From Branchiostoma floridae (taxonomy: Eukaryota > Chordata > Leptocardii > Amphioxiformes > Branchiostomatidae): DNA of 64,000 nucleotides. Of this stretch, positions 2,178-59,200 are shown one piece after another (the stretch's first letter is position 1; each line of letters opens with the position of its first letter). Both the position numbers and the translations under genes were made by a program. The notes below the pieces were generated by a model. That model saw only the letters and a program-made list of their open reading frames with translations. It did not search any database and had not been told where the DNA came from. The stretch is taken from assembly GCF_000003815.2 (NCBI RefSeq), contig NC_049996.1, positions 6,435,731 to 6,499,730 on the forward strand. Reading direction: 5' to 3'.

Positions 2178-2485
2178 AAAAATTTAGGCCGGACGTGACG
2201 GTCATTTTGTTTTGTTACGGCCTGGTAGGATTTGGTATGGCTTTATATAATTTGTAAGGGCCCAAGGGGTTTCCTGATTTGGGATACAGGGGTCAATCAC
2301 TAAACTGAATGTTTATTTAGAACAGCCAATCAGCATTCGCAGAAGTTTCCGTTCTAGCCAATCAACGCACTGAAAAACCATGTGGTTGGCATACGAAAAT
2401 TCAGCCAGTTCACAGCGCCCCTAAGATCGAGAAGTTTGGACACCAGTTTGGTCAGGAAGATTACTGGTATTTGTGTCTTTTGTGC
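2178..2485 (+). repeat. Ngaro repeat A, copy 1 (left terminus)
   Basis: This 308-bp sequence starts at 'aaaaatttaggccggacg' and ends at 'tcttttgtgc'. It is repeated at 3805-4112 with no difference that I can see by eye. It forms the left end of the element, next to the LINE. Confidence 0.92.
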
Positions 2486-2654
2486 ACTGTCTTTTTAGTG
2501 TGGTGACTCTCAGAACAGCCCTAGTATTGCGGTGAGTTTTCTTCTATTTGTACTTTCTATCTGTGGTGTGCTGCCCTGTAGATTGGATTTTTCTGCTGTG
2601 CTATCTTTTGCTGTTGTGAAAATCTTTGGAGTCGGTGTTTTTTCTAATTCTATC

Positions 2655-3272
2655 ATGGCTGAAGGTACAAGCGCAACAACGAAAGTCCTTATTCTAGGAC
2701 ACTCCTTCATCCGAAGACTAGAGCGGTTTGTACACGAGAGAAGGTATACCGCAGCAGGACGAGCTTTCAGTCAAGATTTATGGTTAAAAGATTGCGAGGT
2801 GTCTTGGAAGTGGGTGTCGGGTGGTAATGTGGATAGAATCGGCGGTTTAGCGCAGAGCGGTTGCCTGCCAGACTCAGATTTGGTTTACTTGGAGCTGGGC
2901 TGTAATGACATACTGAGTTGTTATTCTTCTTCTTATTCGTCCGAGGTAACTGCCTTGAGAGTCTTAAACGTGGCTTCACTGGTCAAGGTACGTACGGGAG
3001 CACGTATTATCATTTTGGGGGAACCGTTGGCTAGGGTCTTCGATCCTCCATATATACATTACATTGAAGGACTGGTCAAGTATCTGACTGATCTAAGGAA
3101 AGAGGCATGCGAGGTTAAAGATCTCTACTTGTGGAGGCATGCAAAACTGGCAGACAGACACTGTCCCCAGTATTTTGCTCCCGACGGACTTCACCTTTCA
3201 GATCACGGCCATTGTTTATATTACAGGAGCGTTCGGGGTGCAATCACTGCCCATCTCCCTAAAATATCTTAG
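2655..3272 (+). CDS. SGNH/GDSL-type hydrolase-like protein of the Ngaro element
   Basis: This ORF probably encodes a GDSL/SGNH-fold esterase-like protein; its substrate and role in the retrotransposon are unknown. The open frame begins at 2532. I prefer the ATG at 2655 (206 aa) because the upstream part encodes an unrelated hydrophobic stretch and contains one of the element's recurring noncoding hairpin motifs (2559-2580). Numbered from 2532, the block I motif GHSF gives the candidate nucleophile Ser58. GCND gives block III with Asn125. PDGLH near the C-terminus gives Asp218 and His221, so the full Ser-Asp-His set is present. SGNH ORFs are known from some Ngaro elements. Here the ORF sits alone between repeats A1 and B1, with its own long upstream region. 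Confidence 0.85.
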   Translation: MAEGTSATTKVLILGHSFIRRLERFVHERRYTAAGRAFSQDLWLKDCEVSWKWVSGGNVDRIGGLAQSGCLPDSDLVYLELGCNDILSCYSSSYSSEVTALRVLNVASLVKVRTGARIIILGEPLARVFDPPYIHYIEGLVKYLTDLRKEACEVKDLYLWRHAKLADRHCPQYFAPDGLHLSDHGHCLYYRSVRGAITAHLPKIS

Positions 3273-3509
3273 ATTAACGTTTGATCCCTACTGTGGTAAG
3301 TTACCCTGTAGGGATTGATGTATCTTTGTTGATATATTGTTATGTCTGTTTGGTATTACACCCAAACCCCTTTTAGGTGATGTTTGAACTGGATTGCATC
3401 CCTTGTAGATAATTTGTTTATGCCTACCTTGTGTTATGCCTACCTTACTGGCCTTTTTTATTCGCCTATTGGCTCGATTTGGGGGGGGGGTTTGTCGCTA
3501 ACGCTCCCT
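3273..3509 (+). other. Noncoding region between SGNH ORF and repeat B1
   Basis: It contains one copy of the recurring hairpin motif (3289-3310, tactgtgg..taccctgta) just after the SGNH stop. A ten-G run lies at 3481-3490, immediately before repeat B. Confidence 0.7.
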
Positions 3510-3804
3510 TGGCGGGTAGAAAAAATTGTGACAAATTGTAGATTAGGATATTTCTAGTATGTTAAAAATATTTTAAGAAACAAAATGAGTGAAAAGATGG
3601 TATATGCCAGGTGTAACAATTTGAGCAATGATTTTTTCATTTCGAATCTGAACATAGTATGTATTTGTCATGTTTTATTTTTCATGCCAGTCAATTAAAG
3701 TTCTAGTACTCGCACCAAAAGATAGCGTGGAGTGATTATGGGTCTTATGTTGATGTTTAATGGCCGATAAGGTAGGCATAAATACATTTTCGTGAAACGA
3801 AAAT
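3510..3804 (+). repeat. Ngaro repeat B, copy 1 (internal)
   Basis: This 295-bp sequence runs from 'tggcgggtagaaaaaa' to 'gtgaaacgaaaat' and is repeated at 9915-10209. It abuts repeat A copy 2, so the B-A junction occurs inside the element. A circular intermediate would contain such a junction. Confidence 0.92.
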
Positions 3805-4112
3805 AAAAATTTAGGCCGGACGTGACGGTCATTTTGTTTTGTTACGGCCTGGTAGGATTTGGTATGGCTTTATATAATTTGTAAGGGCCCAAGGGGTTTC
3901 CTGATTTGGGATACAGGGGTCAATCACTAAACTGAATGTTTATTTAGAACAGCCAATCAGCATTCGCAGAAGTTTCCGTTCTAGCCAATCAACGCACTGA
4001 AAAACCATGTGGTTGGCATACGAAAATTCAGCCAGTTCACAGCGCCCCTAAGATCGAGAAGTTTGGACACCAGTTTGGTCAGGAAGATTACTGGTATTTG
4101 TGTCTTTTGTGC
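3805..4112 (+). repeat. Ngaro repeat A, copy 2 (internal)
   Basis: Second 308-bp copy of repeat A. Sequence after it (from 4113) is unrelated to that after copy 1, so the two A copies lead different ORF blocks. Confidence 0.92.
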
Positions 4113-4153
4113 CCTCCCACCCTTCCCTGGCTGGCATCTGGTGTCGCTTGGAC

Positions 4154-4275
4154 TACAGTGGTAAGTTGCCCTGTATTTTAGATACGCCCTGTGGAAAGGG
4201 GGAAGCGGTGGATTGAATTTATTAATTTTTCTTGTGCACGTGATAATTTAGAATACAGTGGTAAGCTGCCCTGTA
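4154..4275 (+). repeat. Two copies of the Ngaro hairpin motif
   Basis: The 22-base motif tacagtggtaagttgccctgta at 4154-4175 is repeated as tacagtgg..gccctgta at 4254-4275. The ends pair (tacagtgg with gccctgta, one mismatch) around a 6-base loop. Related copies lie at 2559-2580, 3289-3310, 9021-9041 and 9242-9263, plus a core-only copy near 4966-4980. A role in RNA packaging, or recognition by gag or RT, is possible but is inference. Confidence 0.75.
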
Positions 4276-4498
4276 TTTATCAGGTTCATTAGATCCAGTT
4301 TGTGCAATGGTGTGACTTGTTAGCTGTATTTCGGTGCGATTCACAGACTATTATCTGATATATTGGGCATGGATGATTTGATAGGAGGGTGGCTGTGATT
4401 ATTTGACACAGTTATAATATTATTATTTTGCTTGAGAGATATTTGACATTCTTGGCTGTGAGACAGTATGATCTACAGACCATTATCTTACATATTTA

Positions 4499-4760
4499 CC
4501 TGTTAGACCTGCTAGGAGGGTTAACACAGGTTATTTTTTATGATGTGATTATGTCTACATAGTTTGCCTGTTGGACCCGCTAGTAGGGTTAACGCAGGTT
4601 AATTTTGGTGATGAGATTATGTCTACATATTTTCCCTGTTAGACCCGCTAGGAGGGTTAACACAGGTTAATGCTGGTGATGTGACTATGGGTCTATGTAT
4701 ACATTTTTACCTGTTAGACCTGCTAGGAGGGTTAATACAGGTTAATTTTGGTGTTGTGAC
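4499..4760 (+). repeat. Tandem array of ~70-bp hairpin-forming units in the Ngaro 5' noncoding region
   Basis: Four units start near 4499, 4568, 4637 and 4710. Each carries 'cctgttagacc(c/t)gctag.agggttaa.acaggtta'. The ends of each unit (cctgtta and aacacagg) are complementary, so each unit can form a hairpin. The array lies upstream of gag and within no ORF of note. Confidence 0.8.
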
Positions 4761-5242
4761 TTTGTCGCACAGTCTTTCTCATTATTTTAATTCCCTAAGA
4801 GGAAGCATGACCCAAAGGTGGGTGGACTTGTTGAGTGTTAGGGATCTAGGGTGTTGCAGTGCATGGAGGAAGGTTGACATACTTCCTTTTTGGTAGTTCT
4901 GTGCTTACCTTGATTTGTCATAATTGAGTTGTGAGAGTCCGCCACTAAGGCAGAAAGGATCCTTGATGGTAAGCTGCCTAAGGATTCCAGTGAGTAAAGT
5001 TATGTTTGTATTATTAACATCTAAGCTGGATCATTGTTTCAACAATTTATACCTTAAGCTGAAATATTTATACTATTATTAATGTGATTATAGTATTTAT
5101 ATTGAATTTATTGATATATAGTATCGTGAGCGCATATTTTTGTAGAGATACACTGGTTATATGGCCTCTTGGTCCAAGGAAATTTCTATATATTTTGCAT
5201 TTCTTTTAATGATCAATTATTATTCTGCTCGGAGTATTAGCG

Positions 5243-6502
5243 ATGCCACCATCTGAAAGATCTAAAAAGAAGAAAGGGAACCAGGGAGTGACAGACAACC
5301 CTCACCCAGGAAACAACAATGGGAGGAGACCTAATACAAGAGCAACGACCGACAGTGGGACTGCCCCCCCTGCACCACCTAGACTCCCTCCACAAAAACT
5401 GTCATTGAAGTCGCTTCAGCAACAGTTGAATGACCTACAGAAGATAACAACTAGATTAGCAGATAAGCTGGACGCGGACAATGTCCCTCACACATCAGCA
5501 GTCAGCACAACTGTAACAACAACAGTGAGCAGCACTGGCCTGCTAGGTGTGCTACCAGCAGGCTCACCCAGCGTTACAAGTGCGGCGAATCAAGGACTAC
5601 TACAACAAGTCACGTCAACAATAACAGCCACTACGTCGAGCACGATTCCCATATACTCAACAAACTCTGTATTCGGATTGCAGCCACCAGCCCTCCTGCC
5701 TACACGGACTGATGGACTTGGTGCTACTCTAGCATCTAGCATTATGAGTACAGGTATCAGCTCTTATGCAGGTAACAATTCCGCTCAGGTTCGGTCAGCG
5801 TCAGTACTGGGTGATCTCTTGGCCAATCAGGATATGGGTACCCGCTTACTAGAAGCAGGTGTTCACCTCCCGTTAGACACGGGTATATCTGATGGAATTA
5901 AGGATAAGATCTGGCAGGATAAATTCGTTGAGCTCAAACAGCTGTTGCCTAACGCACGACCTCGTCAACAATTCATAGTTAACCTTGATACTCTAGCGGG
6001 TTCTCCCACATTGACGCTGGCTAACAGTGCGGAAGATAGGGCAAAGCAATCGCTCACCTTATCACAGTGGTCCATGGCCTTCTCTATTTACCATTACATA
6101 TATATTCAAAAGCACTTAGCGCGAAGTCCTCAGCTGATCGCATATGCGCACTTGATTCGCTCCTTGGCAGAGCGGGGTGCACAATGGAGTAGGTATGATG
6201 CTCTCTTTAGGCAGCTTAGGCACGCATCCCCAAGTACCCCATGGGATGTCCCGAACATGCAGCTGTATGTGGACGCATTCAGTCATGTCAAACCAACTTC
6301 TTTCACAACAAAACCCAATCAACAGCAAAGCAATAACAGTCTACCGTTGGGCTATTGCTTTCGATACCATTCAGCTGCATCAAACTGCTTCGCGGCAAGT
6401 TGCCCATACAAGCACGCATGCCCAACATGCTCAGGAGCACACAAAAACTTCAACTGCCCGCGTAATAGCCAGAACAGGAATACCAACCCCCGTAAACGTT
6501 AA
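5243..6502 (+). CDS. Ngaro gag-like protein
   Basis: This is the probable structural (nucleocapsid-like) protein of the element, 419 aa. It starts with a Lys/Arg-rich N-terminus (SKKKKG) and a Pro/Thr-rich stretch. A short Leu/Gln heptad segment at about residues 52-76 could be a coiled coil, followed by a Ser/Thr-rich low-complexity linker. The conserved-looking helical core spans about residues 190-340. Near the C-terminus is a Cys/His cluster, with CPYKHACPTC followed by H and C, which is a CCHC-like zinc finger. An Arg/Asn-rich tail ends the protein. The RT frame overlaps its end in another phase (+1), so the RT is probably made by frameshifting or re-initiation. The gag call is by position and the zinc finger, not by clear homology. 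Confidence 0.8.
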   Translation: MPPSERSKKKKGNQGVTDNPHPGNNNGRRPNTRATTDSGTAPPAPPRLPPQKLSLKSLQQQLNDLQKITTRLADKLDADNVPHTSAVSTTVTTTVSSTGLLGVLPAGSPSVTSAANQGLLQQVTSTITATTSSTIPIYSTNSVFGLQPPALLPTRTDGLGATLASSIMSTGISSYAGNNSAQVRSASVLGDLLANQDMGTRLLEAGVHLPLDTGISDGIKDKIWQDKFVELKQLLPNARPRQQFIVNLDTLAGSPTLTLANSAEDRAKQSLTLSQWSMAFSIYHYIYIQKHLARSPQLIAYAHLIRSLAERGAQWSRYDALFRQLRHASPSTPWDVPNMQLYVDAFSHVKPTSFTTKPNQQQSNNSLPLGYCFRYHSAASNCFAASCPYKHACPTCSGAHKNFNCPRNSQNRNTNPRKR

Positions 6503-8061
6503 CAAACTAGCCTTTTTTCTAGATGGATATACAGAACAGGAGAAAGACTATTTAATTCACGGTTTTTCTGTTGGTTTTCCCTTAGATTATTTTGGTCCAA
6601 GATTCCGTTCGAAACAAAAGGTAAACTTGCCCAGTTCGTCACAATTCCCAATCATTCAGGAAAGAATTCAATCTGAACTGGAGACAGGAAAAATTGCAGG
6701 ACCGTTCAAGACAGCACCTTTTCATAACCTTTTCTTATCCCCCATTTATGCGGTGCCAAAAAAGACTCCTGGTAAGTACCGGATTATACATGATTTATCT
6801 CACCCGATTGGCAGCGCAGTAAATGGGGGAATACCAAGGGAATTTTCTTCGGTTTCTTATGCTAACATTGATTCGGCTATCAAACATATCAAAACGCTAG
6901 GCCCGGGTTGTTTTCTAGCAAAAACTGATATTCAATCCGCCTTTCGTATAATTCCTGTGCACCCAAATGATCATCACCTATTGGGGTTTTTACCTTAACG
7001 ATGGTTATTACTACGATAGGTGTTTGCCAATGGGATGTTCTACATCTTGTGCCATTTTTGAAGCAGTTAGCACTGCACTCGAATGGATAGCAGTAAGGAA
7101 GCTGAATATACGTTATCCCACTCATATCATAGATGATTTCCTCTTTGCTAATAGCACTTACTCATCCTGCGAACGGGATCTTGAGTTATTCAGTAATATG
7201 TGTCAGCAGGTTGGGGTCCCTTTAGCAGAGGAAAAAACTTTTCACCCTGATACAACAATGACCTTTCTGGGTATTGAATTAGACACAATTAAAATGGAGG
7301 CACGTCTGCCCCTTGACAAACTGCAGAAATGTAAGGTTACCATTCAAGAATTCCTACTTTTTTCATCAGCTTCCCTGAAACAAATTCAATCATTGATAGG
7401 ATTACTAAACCATGTTTGCCAGGTAGTTTCTCCGGGCCGGGCCTTTTTGAGGCGTCTCATAGATTTAACTAAAGCAAAGCAGCCTGGAGACACTCTGATA
7501 AATATTGACATAGGGGTACGGCAGGATTTACGTATGTGGAAGCAATTCCTAGAACATTTCAACGGCAAGTCTTTTTTCATTGATGAGCATTTTTTACATG
7601 ACACAAACTTGAATTTATATACTGATGCGGCTGGATCGTTGGGTTATGGTGCGACGTATGGAACTGCATGGTTTTATGGAGCATGGCCACAGGAGATGAG
7701 ATCCACGAATATTACTATTTTGGAGTTTTATCCCATCGTCCTGGCTCTCCATATTTGGGGACAAGAATGGTCAAATCGTAGTATCATGCTCCACACAGAC
7801 AATCAAGCCTTAGTGTATATCATTAACAGACAGACTTCCAGGAACCCTTTAATCATGCCATTGGTACGCAATTTTGTCTTGATCAGCTTGCAAAGGAACA
7901 TATTATGTAAGGCAGTGCATATCCCTGGGAAAAGGAACGAAATGGCTGACTGTTTATCTCGTTTTCAGATCGACACGTTTCGACGGAGGTTCCCTCATAT
8001 GAATCAGTTTCCAACGCACATTCCACCATCTCTACAGCCGAGCAACTTAATCATGATGTAA
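6483..8061 (+). pseudogene. Ngaro reverse transcriptase / RNase H, one frameshift
   Basis: This encodes the polymerase of the element. The upstream part (open to 6998) has the RT fingers and motif A (KTDIQSAF). The downstream part (from 6967) has CLPMG, then the catalytic pair in HIIDDF (7132-7137), and the RNase H domain (YTDAAGSLGYG; the Glu in ILEFYP; HTDNQALV; NEMADCLSR). A run of five T at 6987-6991 puts the first half out of frame with the second. Four T would make one continuous frame. This is either a recent inactivating mutation or a homopolymer sequencing error. The start is not an obvious ATG: the open frame overlaps the end of gag. Confidence 0.88.
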
Positions 8062-8951
8062 ACAAATTGTTGTTTTGTTCTTTGGCCCCAGCTACGGTAA
8101 CTGCTTATCGTTTGGCATGGCAACATTTTCGTCGTTTCACCTTATCAGTTCATGGTCAGCTTTTGGTACACTTGCCTATTCCTGAAATGCTTATAGGCCA
8201 GTTTGCTACTTTTTTGCACCAAGAAGGGTTCGCTCCATCCTCAATAACGTCTAAGCTCTCGGCCATAAGCTTCATGCACAAGCTTCACAATCTCCCAGAT
8301 CCTACTTCGACGTTCCTCATTCGAAAACTGGTGCATTCAATTCAGAAACACCATGTCCCGGATAGTAGGCTGCCCATAACACCCACAATCCTCCAGAAAT
8401 TGAGTGACATTGTACCGCACATTGTGAATAGGGATTATGATCAGTGCCTTTTCGAAGCAATGTTTTTGTTCATGTATTATTCTTTTGCGCGATTAGGAGA
8501 AGTCACAATAACTAACACCTCTCAACACACTTTGAACCTGGATGATATTACTGCAGTACCAGATCAAAGTGGAGCAACTTCATATATCAAAGTTCAATTC
8601 AAGACATATAAGCATAGCAAGACGTCTACTCCAGCGACCCTTTCCATGATAGCACAGCCGGGCTGTAAGTACTGCCCAGTGAGCAGCCTTGAGCGTTTTC
8701 TCCTGAGGCGTGGGGGTAAATCGGGATGCCTTTTCACCAGCTCATATGGTTCTCCAGTCAGTAGTGATCACTTTACCAAAGTCCTCAAGGCTTGCGTAGT
8801 ACAAGTCAATCTAGACCCGCACAAATATACGTCACATTCTTTCCGTATTGGGGCAGCAACTCAAGCTGCACTACAAGGTGTTCCCGATGACACCATACAA
8901 CGCCTGGGAAGATGGTCATCTGATGCGTTTAAGAAATATATACGCATTTAA
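7950..8951 (+). CDS. Ngaro tyrosine recombinase
   Basis: This is a phage-integrase-type tyrosine recombinase that would insert the circular DNA by strand exchange, in line with the lack of a target-site duplication. The frame is open from about 7950 and overlaps the end of the RT in another phase. There is no ATG in the overlap, so it is likely made by frameshifting or re-initiation. Numbered from the codon at 8067, the catalytic set is Arg142 (FARLGEV), His257 and Arg260 (SHSFRIG), Trp283 (GRWS) and nucleophile Tyr291 (KKYIRI). The protein ends only three residues after the Tyr. The N-terminal SAM-like domain is residues 1-100. All key residues are present. Confidence 0.9.
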   Translation: MFISFSDRHVSTEVPSYESVSNAHSTISTAEQLNHDVNKLLFCSLAPATVTAYRLAWQHFRRFTLSVHGQLLVHLPIPEMLIGQFATFLHQEGFAPSSITSKLSAISFMHKLHNLPDPTSTFLIRKLVHSIQKHHVPDSRLPITPTILQKLSDIVPHIVNRDYDQCLFEAMFLFMYYSFARLGEVTITNTSQHTLNLDDITAVPDQSGATSYIKVQFKTYKHSKTSTPATLSMIAQPGCKYCPVSSLERFLLRRGGKSGCLFTSSYGSPVSSDHFTKVLKACVVQVNLDPHKYTSHSFRIGAATQAALQGVPDDTIQRLGRWSSDAFKKYIRI

Positions 8952-9914
8952 AAGAATGAGGGCGGAGTCGATTGGGTATGAGTTCGTTGATTGATGTTAG
9001 GGTATACGCGAGACTAATATTACAGTGGTGAGTTGCCCTGTTTTTTCTACATGCCCGACATGTACAAAAATGTGTTGCTATGTTAGGTGCTTGCTTTAAG
9101 GATAGTGGCACTAGTCTATAAGTTTGCTTAGGAATACGACTTGTGTATTAATTTCTCGAGTTGCTTGCTATGTTAAGAGATAACGAAGTAAGTTCTTAGT
9201 TCCTTGTATGGCAATTCCCAAGTTATGTTAATTTGTAATAGTACTGTGGTGTGCTGCCCTGTAGGTTCTACATAATTAATGGTTATTGCAATATGTGTTG
9301 CAACATGGGAACCAGCCATAAGGATATTTACTTTAATATTCTGTTAGTAAATAGTCGTTGCTAGATACACCTCAACTAAAGAAGATTATTAGGCATGTAT
9401 GCCCATAGTTTTGTTGTTTTCAAACTAGGATAATCCGTTATATCGCAAGGTATTACCAAGCTCATGGTTCGATAGTACAACTAGAACTACATATGGTTAC
9501 AGTGTTGAATTTGTTCAAGATACAATACTCAATTATATTGTAAGATCTTACCACGTTTGTTGTTAAGGCAGTACAACTAGAACGTCTGTACTTCCTATGG
9601 TTATAGCGTTATAATTTGTTCAAGATACGATACTCTGCTATATCACAAGATCTTACCAAGTCCATTGTTACGGCAGTATAACTAGAACGTTTATACTTCC
9701 TATGGGGATTAAGCGCTGATGTTTTGTTCAGGCTATTATACTCTGTTATATCGCAAGATCTTACCAAGTTCATTGTTATTGTAGTATAACTAGAACGTTT
9801 GTACTTCCTATTGTTATAGCTTTGATGTTTCAAGCTACCTTTACTCGGTTATTTCGCAAAATGTTACCAAGTTATCTTACTATTACTATCCTAGCATAAC
9901 TAGAACGTTTGTAC
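8952..9914 (+). other. Ngaro 3' noncoding region
   Basis: A 960-bp stretch after the recombinase stop. It holds two copies of the hairpin motif (9021-9041 and 9242-9263) and a tandem array (9429-9910). No ORF of note. Confidence 0.7.
9429..9910 (+). repeat. Tandem array of ~100-110-bp units in the Ngaro 3' noncoding region
   Basis: About five diverged units share 'ttatatcgcaagatcttacc' and '(g)tataactagaacgtttgtac'. The second block recurs near 9478, 9576, 9681, 9789 and 9899. The array ends at repeat B copy 2. It is not related in sequence to the 5' array at 4499-4760. Confidence 0.8.
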
Positions 9915-10209
9915 TGGCGGGTAGAAAAAATTGTGACAAATTGTAGATTAGGATATTTCTAGTATGTTAAAAATATTTTAAGAAACAAAATGAGTGAAAA
10001 GATGGTATATGCCAGGTGTAACAATTTGAGCAATGATTTTTTCATTTCGAATCTGAACATAGTATGTATTTGTCATGTTTTATTTTTCATGCCAGTCAAT
10101 TAAAGTTCTAGTACTCGCACCAAAAGATAGCGTGGAGTGATTATGGGTCTTATGTTGATGTTTAATGGCCGATAAGGTAGGCATAAATACATTTTCGTGA
10201 AACGAAAAT
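9915..10209 (+). repeat. Ngaro repeat B, copy 2 (right terminus)
   Basis: Second 295-bp copy of repeat B. It forms the right end of the element, ending in gaaaat; LINE coding sequence resumes at once on the minus strand. Confidence 0.92.
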
Positions 10210-12452
10210 GGTGTTAAGCTCTAATCTTTGATAAGGAATTGGGCCTCTATGGTTTCTTATTGCATTCTTCCATGTAAGAGGTATAGCTTGAAACAGAGTT
10301 ATATATTCAATAATACCATTAGGTCTTGTGTTTAGGTTAAGCTGAGGGTAGTGATCTAGAGATATGAACCTGTCTAAGGGGAAAATGTCTTTTACGAATA
10401 TTCTGTCATTTTTTATCCAGGTTGGGAAGAAAATTGTTTTACCTTGTGACCTTATATATTTGTTGCACCATATTGTTTCTCCCATTATTTCACTTACACT
10501 AGAGGGTTTGTTCTTACCAGCAGAGTGGAAGGATGATATTACCTGTTTATAAAATGTGGGGAATTTACTTATGTCAGGACCATCTTTATCAGAAGTAAAG
10601 TTCATATGCAATAGCAAATTGTCTTGACCAAGGGAGTTTATAAATGTTAACGCAATAACTTTCCATCTTGCGTTGTCATTTGTCACTAATCTTGGTATCC
10701 AGGATGCAAGTAGGGCTTGTCTTTGGAGATCTAAGTTTGTCAGGCCTAATCCTCCCTGCTCAATAGGTTGGCTAACAACATCTCTTTTAATCTTATCTTT
10801 TTTACCATTCCACAGGAAAGTAAACATTTCTTTCTTTACAATGTTTATCACCCAAGGTGGGGTAAGAATCATAGACATGTTATAGATTAATTGTGAAAGG
10901 GCAAGCGATTTTAAGACAGTAACTTTTCCATATAGAGTTAGGTTTCTACCTTTCCAGATTTGAAGTGTGGTTTTCAGTCTTTCTATCTTTTTCTCCCAGT
11001 TTAGCAGTTCACATTCATGGTGTAGGGATGAGTTACAGAAGTATATACCTAGGGATTTTATAGGTGTCTTTGGCCAAGATATACCCAAGGGGGTGTCTTG
11101 TCTGTCAACATAGGATCCAATCCATAAACCTTCACATTTTTTAACATTTAAATTTAGGCTTGAAACACTACAGAAATCTTGAATAAGTTTGAAGGCATTT
11201 TCCATTGATGTAAGGTCAGATACAAACAAGGTAGTATCATCAGCTACCTGTGAGATTTTAATGTCAACAGTTTCATTAGAATGGGTTTTAACTTTAATTC
11301 CTTCCACGTCTTGTGCCTGTCTGATCTTTACAGCCATAATCTCTACTGTGAGGATGAATAAAAGAGCAGATATGGGACAGCCTTGGCGTATGCCTTTCTT
11401 TAAGGGAAAGAAGTCAGATAACCATCCTCTATTACTGATGGTGCTACTAATGTCATTATACATGCATTTTATTGCACTGATAAACGAGGAGCCAAAGTTG
11501 AATTTTTCTAGAACCTTCCACATAAATTTTCTATTCAAAGTGTCAAAAGCTTTAGTAAAATCCAGAAAGATTACTGCTCCAGGGATACTTTGGGTTTTAG
11601 CATATTCAATAACATCATTAATCAGTCTTACATTTTGTCCAATGAATCTACCCTTGATATAAGCTGTTTGGCCATTATTAATCAACTTGTGTAAAACTTT
11701 CTTAAGTCTGTTGGCAAGAACAAAGGCAAATATTTTATATTCAGTGTTGAGAAGGCTAATTGGTCTCCAATTGTCTAGGTTGTGGCGTTCATTTTTTTGT
11801 GTATTAACCTTAGCATTGCACGTCTTTGCAAAACAGACATTTTACCTTCTATCAATGTTTCCTGGATAGAATTATAAACTAGGTCTCCTATATAGGGCCA
11901 AAACATCTTAAAAAATTCTGAGGGAATGCCATTAAGGCCAGGGCTTTTGTTTTCTTTCATAGAGAAAAGGGCATCCTTACATTCATCTTTAGTAATTGGT
12001 TTATCTAAGAATTCTCTGTCAGTTTGGCTCAAGATATTTTCTAACTGTACACTTTCTAAGTACTGATCTATGTCTATATCACTTATATTGTCTTCCTGGT
12101 ATAGTTGTTCATAGTATTCCTTACATTCACTAAGAATATCTGAGTCTCTACTAATCTCTCTCCCATCAATGGATAACAAGTTAATATCCTTGTCACTTCC
12201 TCTTTTCTTTTCCAAGTTTAAGAAGAACTTAGTAGGTTTTCCCCCCTCTTCTCTCCATTTGGTTCTAGCTCTTACATATGCTCCATGTGATTTTTTCATA
12301 TAAAGGTCTTCTAATCTAGATTGTGCTTGCTTGTAGCTAAGTACTAGTATATGGTCATTAGTGGGATTATTATCTATTTCACTTTGAAGGGAAGATAGTT
12401 TTTTTCTCTAACCTCTCTATCTGTTCTCTGCTTTCTCTGGCTTTCTTGGCTC
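10210..12452 (-). pseudogene. LINE ORF2: endonuclease-RT linker and reverse transcriptase
   Basis: Minus-strand ORF2 of the L1/Tx1-like LINE. From 12452 it encodes a Lys/Arg/Glu-rich helical linker (YGAKKARESREQ). RT block 1 follows (SPGLNGIPSEFF, RLIHKK), then NWRPISLLN, then the catalytic core. In the core, motif A is FLDFTKAFDTLN, GIRQGCPISALLF follows, and the catalytic pair sits in VADDTTLFV. The RT thumb region runs up to 10210, where the Ngaro is inserted. Two homopolymer frameshifts are visible: seven T at 12399-12405 (one too many) and seven T at 11792-11798 (one too few). Apart from these, long frames remain open, so the copy is fairly young. Confidence 0.9.
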
Positions 12453-35770: not shown

Positions 35771-36265
35771 TAGCTAGAAAATTGTTTAGCTGACGTATTC
35801 CTACGGTACTGCAGCGGGATGTGTATGTATGTGTGTTTCGTTGTGGACACCATAACTAGAGTAAGCTGGGATGGATAAAATGGAATTTCCAACTGCTACA
35901 AATACACGTTAATGCAGCCGTTCAGGTATTCCTTATCAGTACATGAATGAAATATTAAAGTCTTGAATGGGAGGGTATGTGTTTGTGGAACTCTATTTTA
36001 GAATACTACTGTGCCGTTTCTGGAGTTTGATAATGATGATCTTTATTTACATGCTCTTGCCCTCATGGGCTAAATGCAGTGATTCGATAGTATTACATGA
36101 GATACTAAAGACTAGATACTATTACAAGTGGTGCTACAAGTGAACAACTGAATAGACAAAACATCTGGAGCTATGCTATCACTATAATAATGCATTTAGG
36201 TCGATTACTTTTGCTTGTACATGTATATAGATAATATCATGACAACTTTCATGTTCATCCTCCAG

Positions 36266-36759
36266 GTCAAGTACCTCCTGAGTAAGACCCGAGCCGGCAT
36301 CATCCTGGCTCTGGTGTGGGTGGTTTCTGTCGGCGTGGCCACGCCCATGCTCTTCGTCCACAAGGCGGAGGAGATTCACGACTTCCTGTACGAGCAGCGC
36401 TTCGTGACCTGTCAGGAAAAGTGGTGGGGGCAAACTCAGCAGACATCCTACACCATCTTCAACCTTGTCGTTCTGTTCATCATCCCTCTGCTCACCATGA
36501 CCAGCCTGTACATCCGCATCGCTCACCGCCTGTGGGTGCAGCAGCCAGTCGGTGTGACCGGAAACTTCGCGCACGGCAACTCCGTTCGCCGCAAGCGTCA
36601 GGCCGTCAAGATGCTGGTGGTTGTCGTGTTGCTGTTCGCCGTTTGCTGGCTACCCTTCCACACTGTCACTGTCATGAACGAATTGAATGGACTTCGACTG
36701 GACGAAAAATCTGCCAAGCTACTGATCGCCATTGTGCAGCTGATTGCTTTCAGCAACAG
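36266..36759 (+). CDS. qrfpr-like: QRFP/GPR103-like receptor, coding exon 3
   Basis: This 494-bp exon starts after tccag| and ends aacag|gtgatt, phase 0 in, phase 2 out. It encodes residues 153-316 and two bases of codon 317. TM4 is about 162-182. The second extracellular loop carries Cys201, the partner of Cys118. TM5 is about 214-236. The third intracellular loop is basic (SVRRKRQAVK). TM6 has the CWLP motif at 279-282. TM7 starts at about 303. The DFLYEQ sequence in the loop and LLIAIVQ..FSN in TM7 again resemble GPR103. Reading on into the intron gives an immediate in-frame stop (tga at 36761), so splicing is required. Confidence 0.94.
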
Positions 36760-37193
36760 GTGATTGTTGTTGTCCGCCTTTCTGTCGTAAGACTCAAAGT
36801 TATGCTTCGGTTCCATTTGCACCTGTGCCCGCAAGAGTTTTGCGCCTGCCGGGCTCCAAGGCTACAAATTTGTCCCGGTTGACTACCGGGTTACGGGATG
36901 CATTTGTCCGTGTGTTCATGGGTAGGTCATGGCGTCTATTTGTCGCCGGGTCTCGGGTTTATTTTAACTGCGAGGTAACGCTAAAACACCTTAACTTTTT
37001 TGCGATAAAATGACCAAACGGGGTCTAAACGGACCTTTTATGTTTTGTTCTGTAAAACCCCCTTTTCAGTTTTTTTCGGTGACCATTGTATGTATATTGT
37101 TTCTTTAATGTAATAGAATAGAATATGTTGGCATGTTTAAGTGTAAATCATTCCAGCTAGTTATGAAAAAATATCAGGAGGACCACTTCTTTC

Positions 37194-53249: not shown

Positions 53250-56200
53250 GTAGATAATTCGGGAGATGTTTTCTAGAGGAACAGCGGTATTTTGCAACCA
53301 TGCCCTTACATGTATACAATGATCGTCCTTGCAATAATGAGCAGATCCTATTGAATTTACCAATAGTGCTGAAAGCTAGGTCACAGTCTTAACACGTTTC
53401 GGCCTGAGGGGTGTAGTCCGCTCCAACTTTCATATCTACTAACGCCTGAGCAGCTTATGCTAGGGCACCAAATGTGCCGACCTTTCCAATTAGGTGGGGG
53501 AAAATAAATGTAAAATATATGTGAATAAAATAAATACCGATGAGAGAAACGATCCTGTCATCAATGCCAAGTACCATATTAAAAAAAAGGATGACACCAA
53601 CATCTTTGGGCAACTGGCATAGAAGAGCGTAGCACATTTCCTAAAACCAATGGCACTAATATCGGATTGGTTGACAACACGACGTACACGATTATGATTT
53701 TTAACGTTCTATCCGTACACAAAATAAAGCGCTTACCAACACTGCTGTTTATGGCTCATATACTTAGCCAGCGTGATCAGAATTATGTAACTGCTGCATG
53801 TTTATCCAAGCAAAACAATGCCAACCAGACAAGGACGCTCTAGGGACGTTGACCTTAGGGTCAGGGATTTAACCTGCTACGTAATACACTACATCTCTAA
53901 CTTTATTTTGACACCCTTTTCTGTATCCGTATCTTAAAAAGGACGAGATTTTCGTCATTTTCTGTAAAGGAAGCTCAAAGACAAAAGTAACGAAAATATG
54001 TTGGTAAGAAAAATAAAGGATACCTTTTCTACATCCTTTGCACCCATACATAACCCTCCTATTATGTAAAGTCAGCTCAAAGGTAACGAAAAGGCATCGG
54101 AAATATTGTATCTGTTGTATTAAGGTTTAACCTAGGAGGAGATTTAATTTTCTTGATGAATCAAACAAGCAGAAGGAGCTATCAAAGAAAAGCCAAAGCT
54201 TTAGATAGTGGCACATGCGGTATATATGGTAGCAAACAGTCCGCCAGAGGGGCAGACAGACAAGGGAGCAGACAATAAGGGAGGCAGAAAGGGAAGTTAA
54301 CAGCCAAGGGAGCATACAGACGGACAGGGGAGCAGACAGGCGGACAGGGGAGGCAGAGAGACAGAGAGGCAGACAGACAAAGAGGCAGGCAGACAAGGAA
54401 GCAGACAGAAAGGGAGGCAGATAGACAGGGGAGCGAACAGACCGGGAAGTAGACAGACATGGATGCAAACTGACATGGACAGACTGTCAGACAGGGGAGC
54501 AGACAGACAAGGAAGCAGACACACAGGGAGGCAGACAGAGAAAGGAGAAGACAGACAGGGAAGCAGACAGACAGGGAGCAGACAGACAGAGAGACAGGCA
54601 GACAAGGAAGCAGACAGAAAGGAAAGCAGATAGACAGGGGAGCGAACAGACCGGAAAGTAGACAGACATGGATGCAAACGGACATGGACAGACAGGGGAG
54701 CTGACAGACAGTAAAAGGAGCAGACAGACAGGCGAGCAAACAGACAAGGAACAAGACAGACATGTATATGGAAGCAGATAGACAGAGAAGCGGACAGACC
54801 GGGAAGCAAAAAGACAAGGGAGCAGACAGACAGGGGAGCTGACAGACAGGGTGGCAGACAGACAGGGAGGCAGGCAGACCAGAGAGGCAGACAGACAGGG
54901 GAGCAGACAGACAGAGAGGCAGGCAGACAAGGAAGCATATAGATAAGGAAGTAGACAGACAGGAAAGCAGTAAGTTAGGGAAGCAGACAGACAAGGAAGC
55001 AGACAGACAGCGAAATAGACAGACATTGTGGCAGATGGACAAGGAAGAAGACAGAAAGGAAAGCAGACAGACACGCAGGCAGACAAACAGGGAAGCAGAC
55101 AGACAGGGACGCAGACAGACAGGGATGTCGACAGACAAAGAAGTAGACAGGCAGGGGAGCAGACAGAAAGGAAGGCAGACAGACAAAGAAGAAGACAGGC
55201 AGGTTAGCAGACAGAAAGGTAGACAGACAAGGAAGCATACATGTAGGGAGGTAGACAGACAGGGATGCAGACAAGAAGGGAAGCAGAAAGACGAGAAGGA
55301 AGCAGACGGACTGAGAGACAAACAGACAAGGAGGCAGACAGACATGAAAGCAGACAGACAGGGATGCAGACAGACAGAGATGCAGACAGACAAGGATGCA
55401 GAGAGAAAGGGAAGCAGACAGACAGGGAGGAGGACAGACAAGGAGGCAGACAGACAGAGAAGCAGACAGACAGGAAAGCAGACAGACAAGAAAGCAGACA
55501 CACAGGAAGGCAGACAGACAAGGACGCAGACAGACAGAAAAAACAGGCAGACAGGAAAGCAGACAGACAAGGATTTAGACAGACAGAGAAGCAGATAGAC
55601 AGGGAAGCAGACAGACAGGGAAGCTGGTACACAGGTAGACAGACACGCAAGGAAGCAGACAGACAGGGAGGCAGACAGACAAGGAGGCACACAGATAGGG
55701 AGGCAGACAGATAGGGAAGGAGACATATAGGGAGGCAGACAGACAGGAAGCAGACAGATATGAAAGCAGGCAGACAGGGAGGCAGACAAAGGAGCAGAAT
55801 GACAAGGAAGCAGAGAGACAGGGAGGCAGACAGACAGGAAAGCAGATAGACAGGAAAGCAGACAGAGACGGAGGCTGGCAGACAGGGAGGCAGACAGACA
55901 TTGAGGGTGGCAGACAAGAAAGCAGACAAACAGGAAAGCAGTAAGTTAGGGAAGCAGACAGACAAGGAAGCAGACAGACAAGAAAGCAAAAAGGCAGTGA
56001 AGCAGACAGACAAGGAAGCAGACAGGCAAAGAAACCTACAGACAAGGAAGCAGATAGACAGGGAGGCAGACAGACAAAGAAGCAGACAGTTAGGGAAGCA
56101 GGCAGACAATGACGCAGACAGACAGAAAAGCAGACAGACCGGGAAGCATACAGGCTAGAAAGAAGACAGACAGGGAAGCTAACAGATAGAGAAGAAGACG

Positions 56201-59200
56201 GACAGGGAAGCAGACAGACAAGAAAGAAGACAGACACGGAGGCAGACAGATAGGGAAGCCGACAGACAGGAAGGCACACAAACAACAAAGCATACAGACA
56301 GGGAAGCACACAGACGGGGAGGCAGACAGACAGGGATATCGATGTCGACAGACAAGGAAGTAGAGGACAGGGAGACAGACATAGAGGTAGACAGACAGGG
56401 AGGCATATAGGCAGGGAGGCAGACAGGCATGGACGCAGACAGACAAGAAAGCATAAAGGCAGGGAAGCAGACAGACAAGGAAGCAGACAGTTAGGGAAGC
56501 AGACAGACAGGGAAGCAGGCGGACAATGACGCAGACAGACAGAAAAGCAGACAGACCGGGAAGCAGACAGACAGGAAAGCAGACTGACAGAGAGGCAGGC
56601 AGATATGGAGGGAGGCAGACAAGAAAGCAGACAGACAAGGAAGCAGACAGGCAGGGAAGCAGACAGATAAGGAAGCAGACAGGCAGGGAAATAGACAGAC
56701 ATTGAGGCAGATGGAAAAGGAAGGAGACAGATAAGGAATAAGATAGACGGGGAAGCATACAGACAAGAAAGCAGACAGACAGGGAAGCAGACAGACAGGA
56801 AGGCAGACAAACAGACAGGAAAGCAGACAGACACGGAGTCAGACAGACAGGGATGCACACAGACGGGGAGGCAGACAGACAGGAATGTCGACAGACAGGG
56901 AAGTAGAGAACAGGGAGACATAAAGATAGACAGACAGGGAGGCATAGAGACAGGGAGGCAGACAGGCATGGAAGCAGACAGACAAGAAAGCATAGAGGCA
57001 GGGAAGCAGACAGACAAGGAATCAGGCAGGCGAAGAAACCTACAGACAAAGAAGCAGATAGACAGGGAGGCAGACAGGAAAGGAGGCAGACAAACAGAGA
57101 AGCAGACAGACAGGGAAACAGACCGACAGACAAGGAAGCAGACAGACAGGGAGGCATAGGGGAAGGGAGGCAGACAGGAATTGAAGCAGACAGACAAGAA
57201 AGTATAGAGGCAGGCAAGCAGAAAGACAGACATGAAAGCAAACAGGCAAGGAAGCCAACAGAAAGGGAAGCAGACAGACAGGGAGGCAGACAGACAGACA
57301 AGGAGGCAGACAGACAGGGAAGCAGACAGACCGAAAAGAACACAGACGAGAAAGAAGACAGACAGGGAAGCTAATAGACAGAGAAGCAGACAGGGAGGGA
57401 TTTAGCCGGACAGGAAGACGGACAGTGAGGGAGGCAGAACGACAAGGAGGCAGACAGGCAAACAAGAAAGCAAATAGACAAGGACAGAGACAGACAGAGA
57501 AGCAGACAAACGGGGGAGCGGACAAACAGAGAGGCAGACAGACTGACAGGGAAGTAGACAGACTTGGAGGCAGGCAGATAGACCGGAAAGCAGACAGACA
57601 AACAGGGGCGCAGACAGACAAGGGCGCAGACAGACAGGGAAGCAGAGAGACAGGGAAGGAGATAGACAAAGAAGTAGACAGACAGAGAAGCAGACAGGGA
57701 GGGAGGCAGAACAACAAGGAGGCATACAGATAGACAAAAAAGCAAATAGACAAGGAAGGAGACAGGCAGGGAAGCAGATAGACAAAGAAGTAGACAGATA
57801 GAGAGGCAGACGGACAGGGAGACAGACAGACAGGGAAGCAGACAGGGAGGGAGGAAAAACAACAAGGAGGCAGACAGACAGACAGACAGACAAGAAAGCA
57901 AATAGACAAGGAATGAGACAGACAGAGAAGCAGACAGACGGGGAAGCGGACAGACGTTGAAGTATACAGACAGGCAGACTGACCGGGAAGCAGACGGACG
58001 GGGAGGCAGGCAGATAGACAGGGAAGCATACAGACAGACGGGGAAATAGACAAGGAGGCAGACAGACAAAGACGCAGACAGACAGGGAAGAAGACAAACA
58101 GGGAGGCAGACAGACAAGGACGCAGACAGACAGGGAAGAAGACAGACAGGGAAGAAGACAGACAGAAAGGCAGACAGAGAAGGAAGCAGACGGACAGGGA
58201 GGCAAATAGACAAGAAGGGAGACAGACAGAAAGGCAAACAGACAAGGAGGCAGACAGACAGGGCAACAAACAGGAAGGCAGCCAGAAAGGGAGGCACACA
58301 GACAAGGAAGCAGACAGTCTGGGAAGCGGACAGACAGGGAGGAAAACAGACAAGGAAGCAGGCAGACAGGAATGCAGAGAGGTAGACAGACAGAGAAGCA
58401 GACAGACAAGGAGGCAGACAGGCAGGGAAGCAGACAGACAGGGACACAGACAGACAAAGGGAGCTGACAGGCAGAGAGAAAGACAGAAAAGGAAGCAGAC
58501 AGACAGGAAAGGAAAACAGACAAGGAAGCAGGCAGACAGGGAAGCAGACAGACATGGAGGCAGACAGACAAGGAGGCAGACAGACAATGATGCAGACAGA
58601 CAGGGAAGTAGACAGACAGAGAGGCAGACAGACAAGGAAGCAGACAGACAGTCTCATCATTCGGAGTACAGTATAAGCTTCTTTACAAGGTTTCTTGCAG
58701 TTTTGAAGGGAACATTACCTTCTAATTGTTGATACTCTACAAAAGAGAAAGTTTATAATTACATGCTATTTTAGAGTGATTAGATACCAAATTTGCTGGC
58801 CCTTGCGTAATAAGATGTTCAGGAGATATGCGACATTTAAGTTGAAACGGGCATTAAAACCCATTTTCCCCGGTCTGAATAGGGTTAGTTCCAAATGTGG
58901 TCCTAATGATATTTTGCATACATTATGATAATTACCCGGAGGTATTCACATCAAATTACGTCAAACTGTCATACAAAGATTATTGAAACTATTTATGTAT
59001 CACAAAAATAGTCACGCTAAAAGTGTATTTGTATAAAACGGTAAGATTAGTAAAAAAAATACGTTGTTTGAGGGTTAAAGAAGACAATCTTCATTGTGCT
59101 CTTGTCTATCTCCAGTCTGCCTAACCGAGTACCCCATCTAAGGGGACCTACTGGTGGCCAGCATGTTGTTGTTTGAAAACAGGAGGCTCTACCTCCAGAG

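Follow-up and report, generated by a model that had tools for sequence, protein, structure and literature searches.

An element at positions 2178 to 10209 of a 64,000-nucleotide (nt) stretch of the Branchiostoma floridae genome (assembly GCF_000003815.2, contig NC_049996.1, positions 6,435,731 to 6,499,730 of the forward strand; hereinafter, the window) raises the question of how a retrotransposon built of two modules with the same ends is copied and inserted. In the window sequence, this 8.03-kb unit has the order A1-SGNH-B1-A2-gag-RT/RH-YR-B2, in which A and B are direct repeats and the intervening open reading frames (ORFs) specify a putative SGNH/GDSL hydrolase, a gag-like protein, a reverse transcriptase (RT) with RNase H (RH), and a tyrosine recombinase (YR). 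Thus, the SGNH ORF lies inside the first A-B pair and the gag-like, RT/RH, and YR ORFs lie inside the second. The unit is a clean single insertion, the repeats within each copy are nearly identical, the order of the modules is fixed in the copies read from four families, and the SGNH cassette is missing on three separate branches. We consider it probable that this is an Ngaro-type YR retrotransposon whose internal B-A junction separates an SGNH cassette from a gag-RT-YR cassette, that it integrates only via a new B2-A1 junction, and that copies with the gag-pol cassette alone derive from recombination between A1 and A2.

Architecture of the element and its insertion site

Repeat A1 (2178 to 2485), the left end, is exactly repeated as A2 (3805 to 4112), and B1 (3510 to 3804) is exactly repeated as B2 (9915 to 10209), the right end, all on the + strand. 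Pairwise comparison within the window copy showed zero mismatches in both the 308-bp A pair and the 295-bp B pair, bearing out the initial annotation, which had described two modules with identical ends, each ORF block being enclosed by a full A and a full B. A2 abuts B1, and this is the internal B-A junction. The length of A becomes 312 bp if the four shared bases AAAT on its left side are counted, and the final 19 bp of B1 form an inverted repeat, ATTTTCGT-GAA-ACGAAAAT. By pattern match only, A1 contains CCAAT at 2326 and 2358 and TATATAA at 2244 on the + strand; B1 contains ATTAAA at 3694. Two tandem repeats lie on the same strand, one upstream of gag (4482 to 4766; period, 68 bp; 4.1 copies) and the other before B2 (9492 to 9873; period, 108 bp; 3.6 copies).

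The unit interrupts the ORF of a long interspersed nuclear element (LINE) on the - strand, whose 3' part (1716 to 2177; zf-RVT, PF13966, E = 3.2e-6) and reverse-transcriptase part (10210 to 11685; PF00078, E = 5e-22) flank it on either side. When the flanks are joined between 2177 and 10210, the host ORF is continuous, with no bases gained or lost. Because the joined ORF reads through, positions 2178 to 10209 were inserted as a single unit without a target duplication, the bases AAAT at 2174 to 2177 being shared with the target. No second copy of the element was found elsewhere in the 64-kb window.

Copies of the element in the amphioxus genome

Searches of the genome (513 Mb, 431 contigs) with queries that included the B-A junction, the YR DNA, and the SGNH module were used to collect further copies. 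The junction and YR searches recovered at least eight copies of the window element (family 1). Five are two-module copies with the order A-SGNH-B-A-gag-RT-YR-B, namely, C18 (the window copy), C17 (in which 2.9 kb of N covers most of gag, RT, and YR), C11, C4, and C2, and three consist of A-gag-RT-YR-B alone, namely, two on C6 at 21.75 Mb (C6a) and 26.1 Mb (C6b) and one on C8 at 0.39 to 0.40 Mb, which bears an insertion within gag. Neither a gag-first nor an SGNH-only copy was present among these eight. Hence, of the two free single modules that had been anticipated, the gag-pol module exists, in three of eight copies, and no SGNH-only counterpart was found in family 1.

All the flanks of the eight insertions differ. 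Seven have a left flank ending in AAAT and C2 has one ending in TTAT, and the base that follows the right-end ACGAAAA reads T, T, G, T, G, A, A, and A across the eight copies. Since this base varies, the eight-copy comparison moves the element edge one base further left (T+A... at the left), with a B of 294 bp.

The search with the SGNH module yielded 28 matches, of which only those in the five two-module copies are full length. This speaks against the suggestion that the module could travel by itself as a passenger: in family 1 the full-length SGNH module never turned up alone, with the relatives at C11:1323182 and C3:9024510 uninspected. Diverged or partial relatives of the module occur at four loci (81% identity on C6, 74% on C11 in two pieces, 73% on C8, and 66% on C3), and 18 loci match only its last ~80 bp, 13 of these being junction loci of family 2 (see below). 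Two loci with older SGNH sequence were left out of the count of module orders. In L022 (1046 to 1773), a terminal B comes right after an old SGNH fragment, with a non-A flank beyond it; this could be what remains of a solo SGNH module or, equally, the result of an internal deletion. L023 (1515 to 2724) has a diverged A and an SGNH region (80 to 81%) with a stop in its frame, and no B was found within the 0.56 kb examined after SGNH.

In the five two-module copies C18, C17, C11, C4, and C2, A1 and A2 differ in 0, 1, 0, 1, and 2 columns, and B1 and B2 differ in 0, 0, 3, 0, and 1 columns, respectively, with some of these differences being end effects. Across all family-1 copies, 30 columns of A and 11 of B are variable; many of the 30 fall within deletions present in C4 and C6b, or in C2, and in copies with two A repeats both have them. 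The few within-copy differences and the shared deletions indicate that the repeats of a copy share one source, a requirement of the split-repeat model for how Ngaro elements replicate (PMC6681497).

Order of the modules in related families

Module 1 comes first in all 18 two-module copies whose order could be read (five of family 1, five of family 2, six of family 3, and two of family 4). Family 2 comprises 14 junction loci with 72 to 75% identity (junction search, 40 of 87 candidates scored) and has the layout A (~230 bp)-1.45 to 1.6 kb-B (~290 bp)-A-3.5 to 4.7 kb-B; the stretches compared within it are mostly 95 to 98% alike. Its order was read in three whole copies (L039 to L041) and two left halves (L027 and L030). 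The whole copies, of which L040 and L041 each contain ~1 kb of N, gave no SGNH or YR match; all that can be recognized of the SGNH module in them is its final 80 bp. To judge from these sequences, family 2 (L039 to L041) is probably non-autonomous, though both modules and the internal junction have been kept.

Family 3 was recovered at eight loci through a YR 60 to 61% identical to that of the window element. Its member L042, whose right end is in L057, reads A-SGNH-B-A-gag-RT-YR-B with long open frames and an SGNH of 46% amino acid identity. Among six further copies, the upstream side is A-SGNH-B-A-gag leader in five and N in one, and the downstream side in all six is B followed by sequence without an A, the B being cut at 266 of 319 bp in the copy on C2 at 20.9 Mb. 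With seven of the eight loci tried (C217 was left out), all six readable copies are SGNH first, and none of the six lacks SGNH. Two copies of this family, L045 and L051 (on C7 and C5 at 11 Mb), have ~35 bp of left flank in common, at about positions 91 to 125, with nothing common further out and with different right flanks. Family 4 (YR 53% identical, two loci) is SGNH first at both loci: L043 is whole, with long open frames in the order A-SGNH-B-A-gag-RT-YR-B and an SGNH of 35% amino acid identity, and C192 shows the same order in its left half, the stretch examined for its right end being without a B. L044 of family 5 likewise has SGNH upstream; this locus was kept out of the count because it contains 1.4 kb of N and part of its SGNH is duplicated. 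No relatives were found in IMG/VR with YR, RT, and SGNH queries or in prokaryote genomes with an RT query.

These counts bear on two other accounts of the element. Any full circle would hold two identical B-A junctions, and the initial annotation had accordingly proposed that opening at either one generates both permuted orders along with freely mobile single modules. Solo gag-pol copies do exist, as that proposal has it; however, gag-first copies number 0 of 18, where half would be expected, an outcome with a probability of about 4 in a million if the junctions are equal and the insertions independent, and the solo full-length SGNH module was not found in family 1. Random opening at either junction is thus unsupported, and we accord it very little probability. 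What the annotation itself had listed as contrary evidence, namely, a single order together with an absence of solo modules or circular junctions, was found in its first half, only the SGNH-first order being seen, but not in its second, since a solo gag-pol module exists. The element might instead be a composite in which a non-autonomous A-SGNH-B and an A-gag-pol-B now lie in tandem, one having inserted at the end of the other. The direct B-A joint does resemble a tandem insertion, and for DIRS-1, which is also a YR element, insertion into its own kind has been reported (PMC5633606). Nonetheless, the same composite is seen at many sites, in families with SGNH proteins 35 to 46% identical to that of the window element; moreover, the full-length SGNH module did not turn up alone in family 1 and the repeats within a copy evolve together, so that we regard a composite origin as very unlikely.

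Origin of the gag-pol-only copies

Two trees were built, one of the RT-YR-3' region from seven copies, without C17, in which N covers most of that region, and one of the 5' leader from all eight. In the former, C6b groups with C4 (100/98), C8 groups with C11 (98/95), and C6a groups with the window copy (90/91); the first of these pairs recurs in the 5' leader tree with support of 98/96 and the second recurs with 89/87. The partner of each gag-pol-only copy is therefore a different two-module copy, from which it differs by 1.2, 2.6, and 3.2 positions per kb, and no two gag-pol-only copies are paired with each other. This distribution points to at least three losses of the SGNH cassette, if it was never regained. 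That the gag-pol-only copies are single tips fits an inability to rebuild their ends without an internal B-A junction.

Such copies may also have formed once the element was in the chromosome, its A1 and A2 undergoing homologous recombination in the manner of solo long terminal repeats, in which case they would be uninformative about the replication cycle. A1 and A2 are nearly identical and their starts are ~1.6 kb apart versus 6.4 kb for B1 and B2; the loss of the short SGNH side in three copies, and of the gag-pol side in none, fits this shorter distance. Solo A-B repeats in Cafeteria have been given the same explanation (PMC8547959). Against this, cassette loss in three of eight copies, each so close to its two-module neighbor, requires that the loss be fast. 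On balance, we assign post-insertion loss not quite an even chance.

A model for replication with a retained internal junction

The cycle that we favor, with insertion through one new junction, would proceed as follows. A would serve as a promoter and B as a poly(A) region, and so each cassette could have its own mRNA. A read-through RNA from A1 to B2 would carry one complete B-A junction, from which reverse transcription would rebuild the missing ends of the RNA, as in the published split-repeat model. The ends would then be joined, and the YR would insert the product at AAA. The order of the modules was never seen to switch, which argues that integration takes place through one junction only: either the newly made B2-A1 junction is the one used or the integrating form has just that junction, the internal one staying unused. 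Recombination between A1 and A2, whether through template switching of the RT, in the resolving of a circle, or at a later time in the chromosome, would give rise to gag-pol-only copies, and copies without the internal junction would be dead ends. In keeping with this cycle, family 2 retains both modules and the internal junction despite the lack of an SGNH or YR match in its three whole copies.

Several points weigh against this reconstruction. The genome counts are lower bounds, given the share of junction candidates scored, and a family with SGNH last may exist elsewhere in the genome, outside the families read. Gene conversion could also have caused the likeness of the repeats within a copy. 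The RT-YR-3' tree has only seven tips, and its pairing of C6a with the window copy falls below the star limit of the tool; the 5' leader tree leaves C6a, C17, and the window copy without clear placement. The promoter and poly(A) roles are read from sequence motifs, and the basis throughout is the assembled genome sequence.

In the literature cited, both the rebuilding of Ngaro ends and the choice of junction by the recombinase are models derived from sequence. The two-cassette copies, in which the order is fixed and one cassette has been lost repeatedly, offer a natural test set for such models; the fixed order and the cassette loss suggest that copying requires the internal B-A junction, whereas integration does not use it.

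Coding regions

Five ORFs were scanned against Pfam at an E value of 0.01, and of the matches obtained, only that of the YR exceeds the gathering score. The putative SGNH/GDSL hydrolase ORF (2655 to 3272, + strand; 205 amino acids [aa] from the ATG) matches PF13472 with an E value of 1.7e-7 and a score of 32.3 bits, just below the gathering score of 32.9, and contains GHS, GCND, and DGLH, candidates for the conserved Ser, Gly, Asn, and His blocks of SGNH/GDSL hydrolases. A PDB sequence search with this protein gave no match at an E value of 0.1, and a structure model with a mean predicted local distance difference test score (pLDDT) of 33 was discarded. The ORF is intact in all five two-module family-1 copies. 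Its ratio of nonsynonymous to synonymous changes (dN/dS) is 0.12 at a dS of 0.57 relative to the 81% relative L023 and 0.21 relative to the partial SGNH in L022, by a simple Nei-Gojobori count in which the stop carried by each of these loci was skipped. Among the young copies, the ratios range from 0.21 to 1.33, with too few changes for judgement. From the comparisons with L023 and L022, the hydrolase is deduced to be under purifying selection for most of the divergence time. For GDSL proteins of other retroelements, a role in membrane passage has been proposed in a review (PMC6431247).

In the second cassette, all on the + strand, the first ORF (5243 to 6502; 419 aa) has a CX2CX3HX4C motif near its C terminus, seen by eye, and no Pfam match at the above threshold; we call it gag-like by position only. 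The RT/RH region (6156 to 8061) matches PF00078 (E = 1.4e-6) and PF13456 (E = 7e-4), both just below the gathering score. In the window copy it is split over two frames, with a frame shift between 6952 and 6995, and in the C11 and C8 copies a 634-codon open frame runs across the RT region that is broken there. The YR ORF (7950 to 8951; 333 codons open; PF00589, E = 2.4e-9) has the motifs RLGE, HSFR, and a late KY, and its frame is open in seven of the eight family-1 copies, i.e., those in which it is readable. No methyltransferase domain was matched in the five ORFs, the scan being a weak test of absence.

Relationship to known elements

Ngaro elements have been described with the layout A1-[ORFs]-B1A2B2 (PMC8547959), in agreement with the initial annotation, which put the polymerase ORFs of the reported layout first, and the internal Ngaro repeats are described as lying downstream of the YR (PMC4157794). 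The amphioxus element resembles Ngaro in having RT/RH and YR genes preceded by a gag-like ORF, with RT/RH matches just under the gathering score; in having split direct repeats (A1, B1A2, and B2) with identical pairs; and in lacking a target duplication, as seen from the LINE ORF and as the flanks of the eight copies agree, and a methyltransferase match. It differs in that the internal B-A junction is upstream of gag, in the window copy and in the copies of families 2 to 4 that were read, rather than after the YR, and in that each A-B pair contains an ORF block. Since the tested features of Ngaro are present except for the place of the internal repeats, its sequence supports classification as an Ngaro-like variant, whose order differs from the published layout; we make no claim that such an order is unpublished.

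DIRS-53_XT, an Ngaro-like element of Xenopus tropicalis, likewise combines an SGNH ORF with split direct repeats, of which A is 236 bp and B is 152 bp long; in contrast to the amphioxus element, in which SGNH comes first and in its own cassette, its SGNH is described as following the YR in overlapping frames (PMC9210276). Should the SGNH ORF of the Xenopus element be located between its A2 and B2, the two elements could be circular permutations of one circle. An unusual arrangement of Ngaro repeats has been noted before in amphioxus: the element of the VCBP2/5 cluster is Ngaro-like, with three ORFs and split direct repeats that its authors called distinct, and no hydrolase is mentioned in the text examined (PMC2632668). 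In PAT elements, too, the internal A2B1 repeats may occupy other positions, but PAT belongs to the DIRS group and encodes a methyltransferase domain (PMC4157794).

A hairpin repeated along the sense strand

The core GGTRNGYTRCC occurs eight times in the window, always within the element and on its sense strand, versus a mean of 0.44 and a maximum of 2 in shuffles of the whole window. As this pattern was drawn after the copies had been seen, the remaining 56 kb and the opposite strand, in which no core occurs, constitute the better control. The hairpins built on these cores, all on the + strand, lie at 2549 to 2591 (core at 2565; weak lower stem), 3279 to 3321 (3295; just past the SGNH stop; z = -5.6), 4144 to 4186 (4160; z = -1.35), 4244 to 4286 (4260; z = -2.7), 4952 to 4994 (4968; z = -1.8), 5530 to 5572 (5546; within the gag-like ORF; z = -0.5), 9011 to 9053 (9027; short lower stem), and 9232 to 9274 (9248; the minimum-energy fold being a different structure). 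Copies are thus present in both cassettes. Taken alone, those with cores at 2565, 5546, 9027, and 9248 show no folding advantage over shuffles (z = -0.5 to -0.1).

When the copies were aligned with their flanks, the 11 pairs of the stem were 84% paired, versus 36 to 48% for slid controls, and seven pairs had two-sided changes. In 500 shuffles, the observed pairing share, number of cells with changes on both sides, and covariation score were never attained; pairs with two-sided changes were as numerous in 3 shuffles, and further pair types were as numerous in 55. The argument for a hairpin comes from the core, the strand, the position, and the covariation. A descriptor made stricter by requiring exactly one bulged base recovered three of the eight copies (60 shuffles: mean, 0.05; maximum, 1). 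With one mismatch allowed in the core, 16 were found versus 15.7 expected over the window, i.e., chance level; one such core, at 6394, folds unlike the others and was not counted. A covariance model recovered its own eight training copies, as expected, and one further match with an E value of 0.84. Rfam gave no match for the window at the gathering threshold and none for the element at an E value of 1.

Family-1 copies have eight cores if two-module and six if gag-pol-only, as far as the modules are present; this retention is no sign of selection, because the copies are too alike. In family 2, L039 and L040 have six cores each, five of them in a tandem array in the gag region, and L041 has one, with another fold. 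L042 of family 3 has five, four with a closed core by a lenient test in which the core pairs with itself, and L044 of family 5 has one, on its duplicated piece. No such core is present in L043 of family 4. Wherever cores occur in the related families, they are on the sense strand.

A hairpin with a bulge that recurs along a sense RNA is similar to coat-protein operators, and from this resemblance we guess that the hairpin may be a Gag-binding or packaging signal. On a broader and rather doubtful proposal, both cassettes would be marked by a dispersed operator-like hairpin that Gag recognizes, providing multiple packaging sites on the genomic RNA; this would explain its retention in the non-autonomous family and the possible packaging and reverse transcription of each cassette. 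The hairpins might, instead of binding Gag or directing packaging, be masked 5' splice donor sites, since the core is akin to GTRAGY and those reading GGTAAGT or GGTGAGT fit the donor consensus. However, some cores read GTGTGC or GTAGGT, the lower stems covary, for which splicing has no need, and two of the copies lie beyond the YR stop; we hold this explanation to be unlikely. The set of hairpins offers a concrete candidate for an RNA-recognition signal of these elements.

Other features of the window

Elsewhere in the window, positions 54317 to 58651 comprise a 4.3-kb array of CAGACAGACAGGGAAG-like units with a strongly purine-rich + strand (AT skew, 0.7 to 0.8). A piece of a rhodopsin-type G-protein-coupled receptor gene at 36215 to 36763 (PF00001, E = 1.9e-25) was the sole non-transposon match among 10 ORFs scanned.

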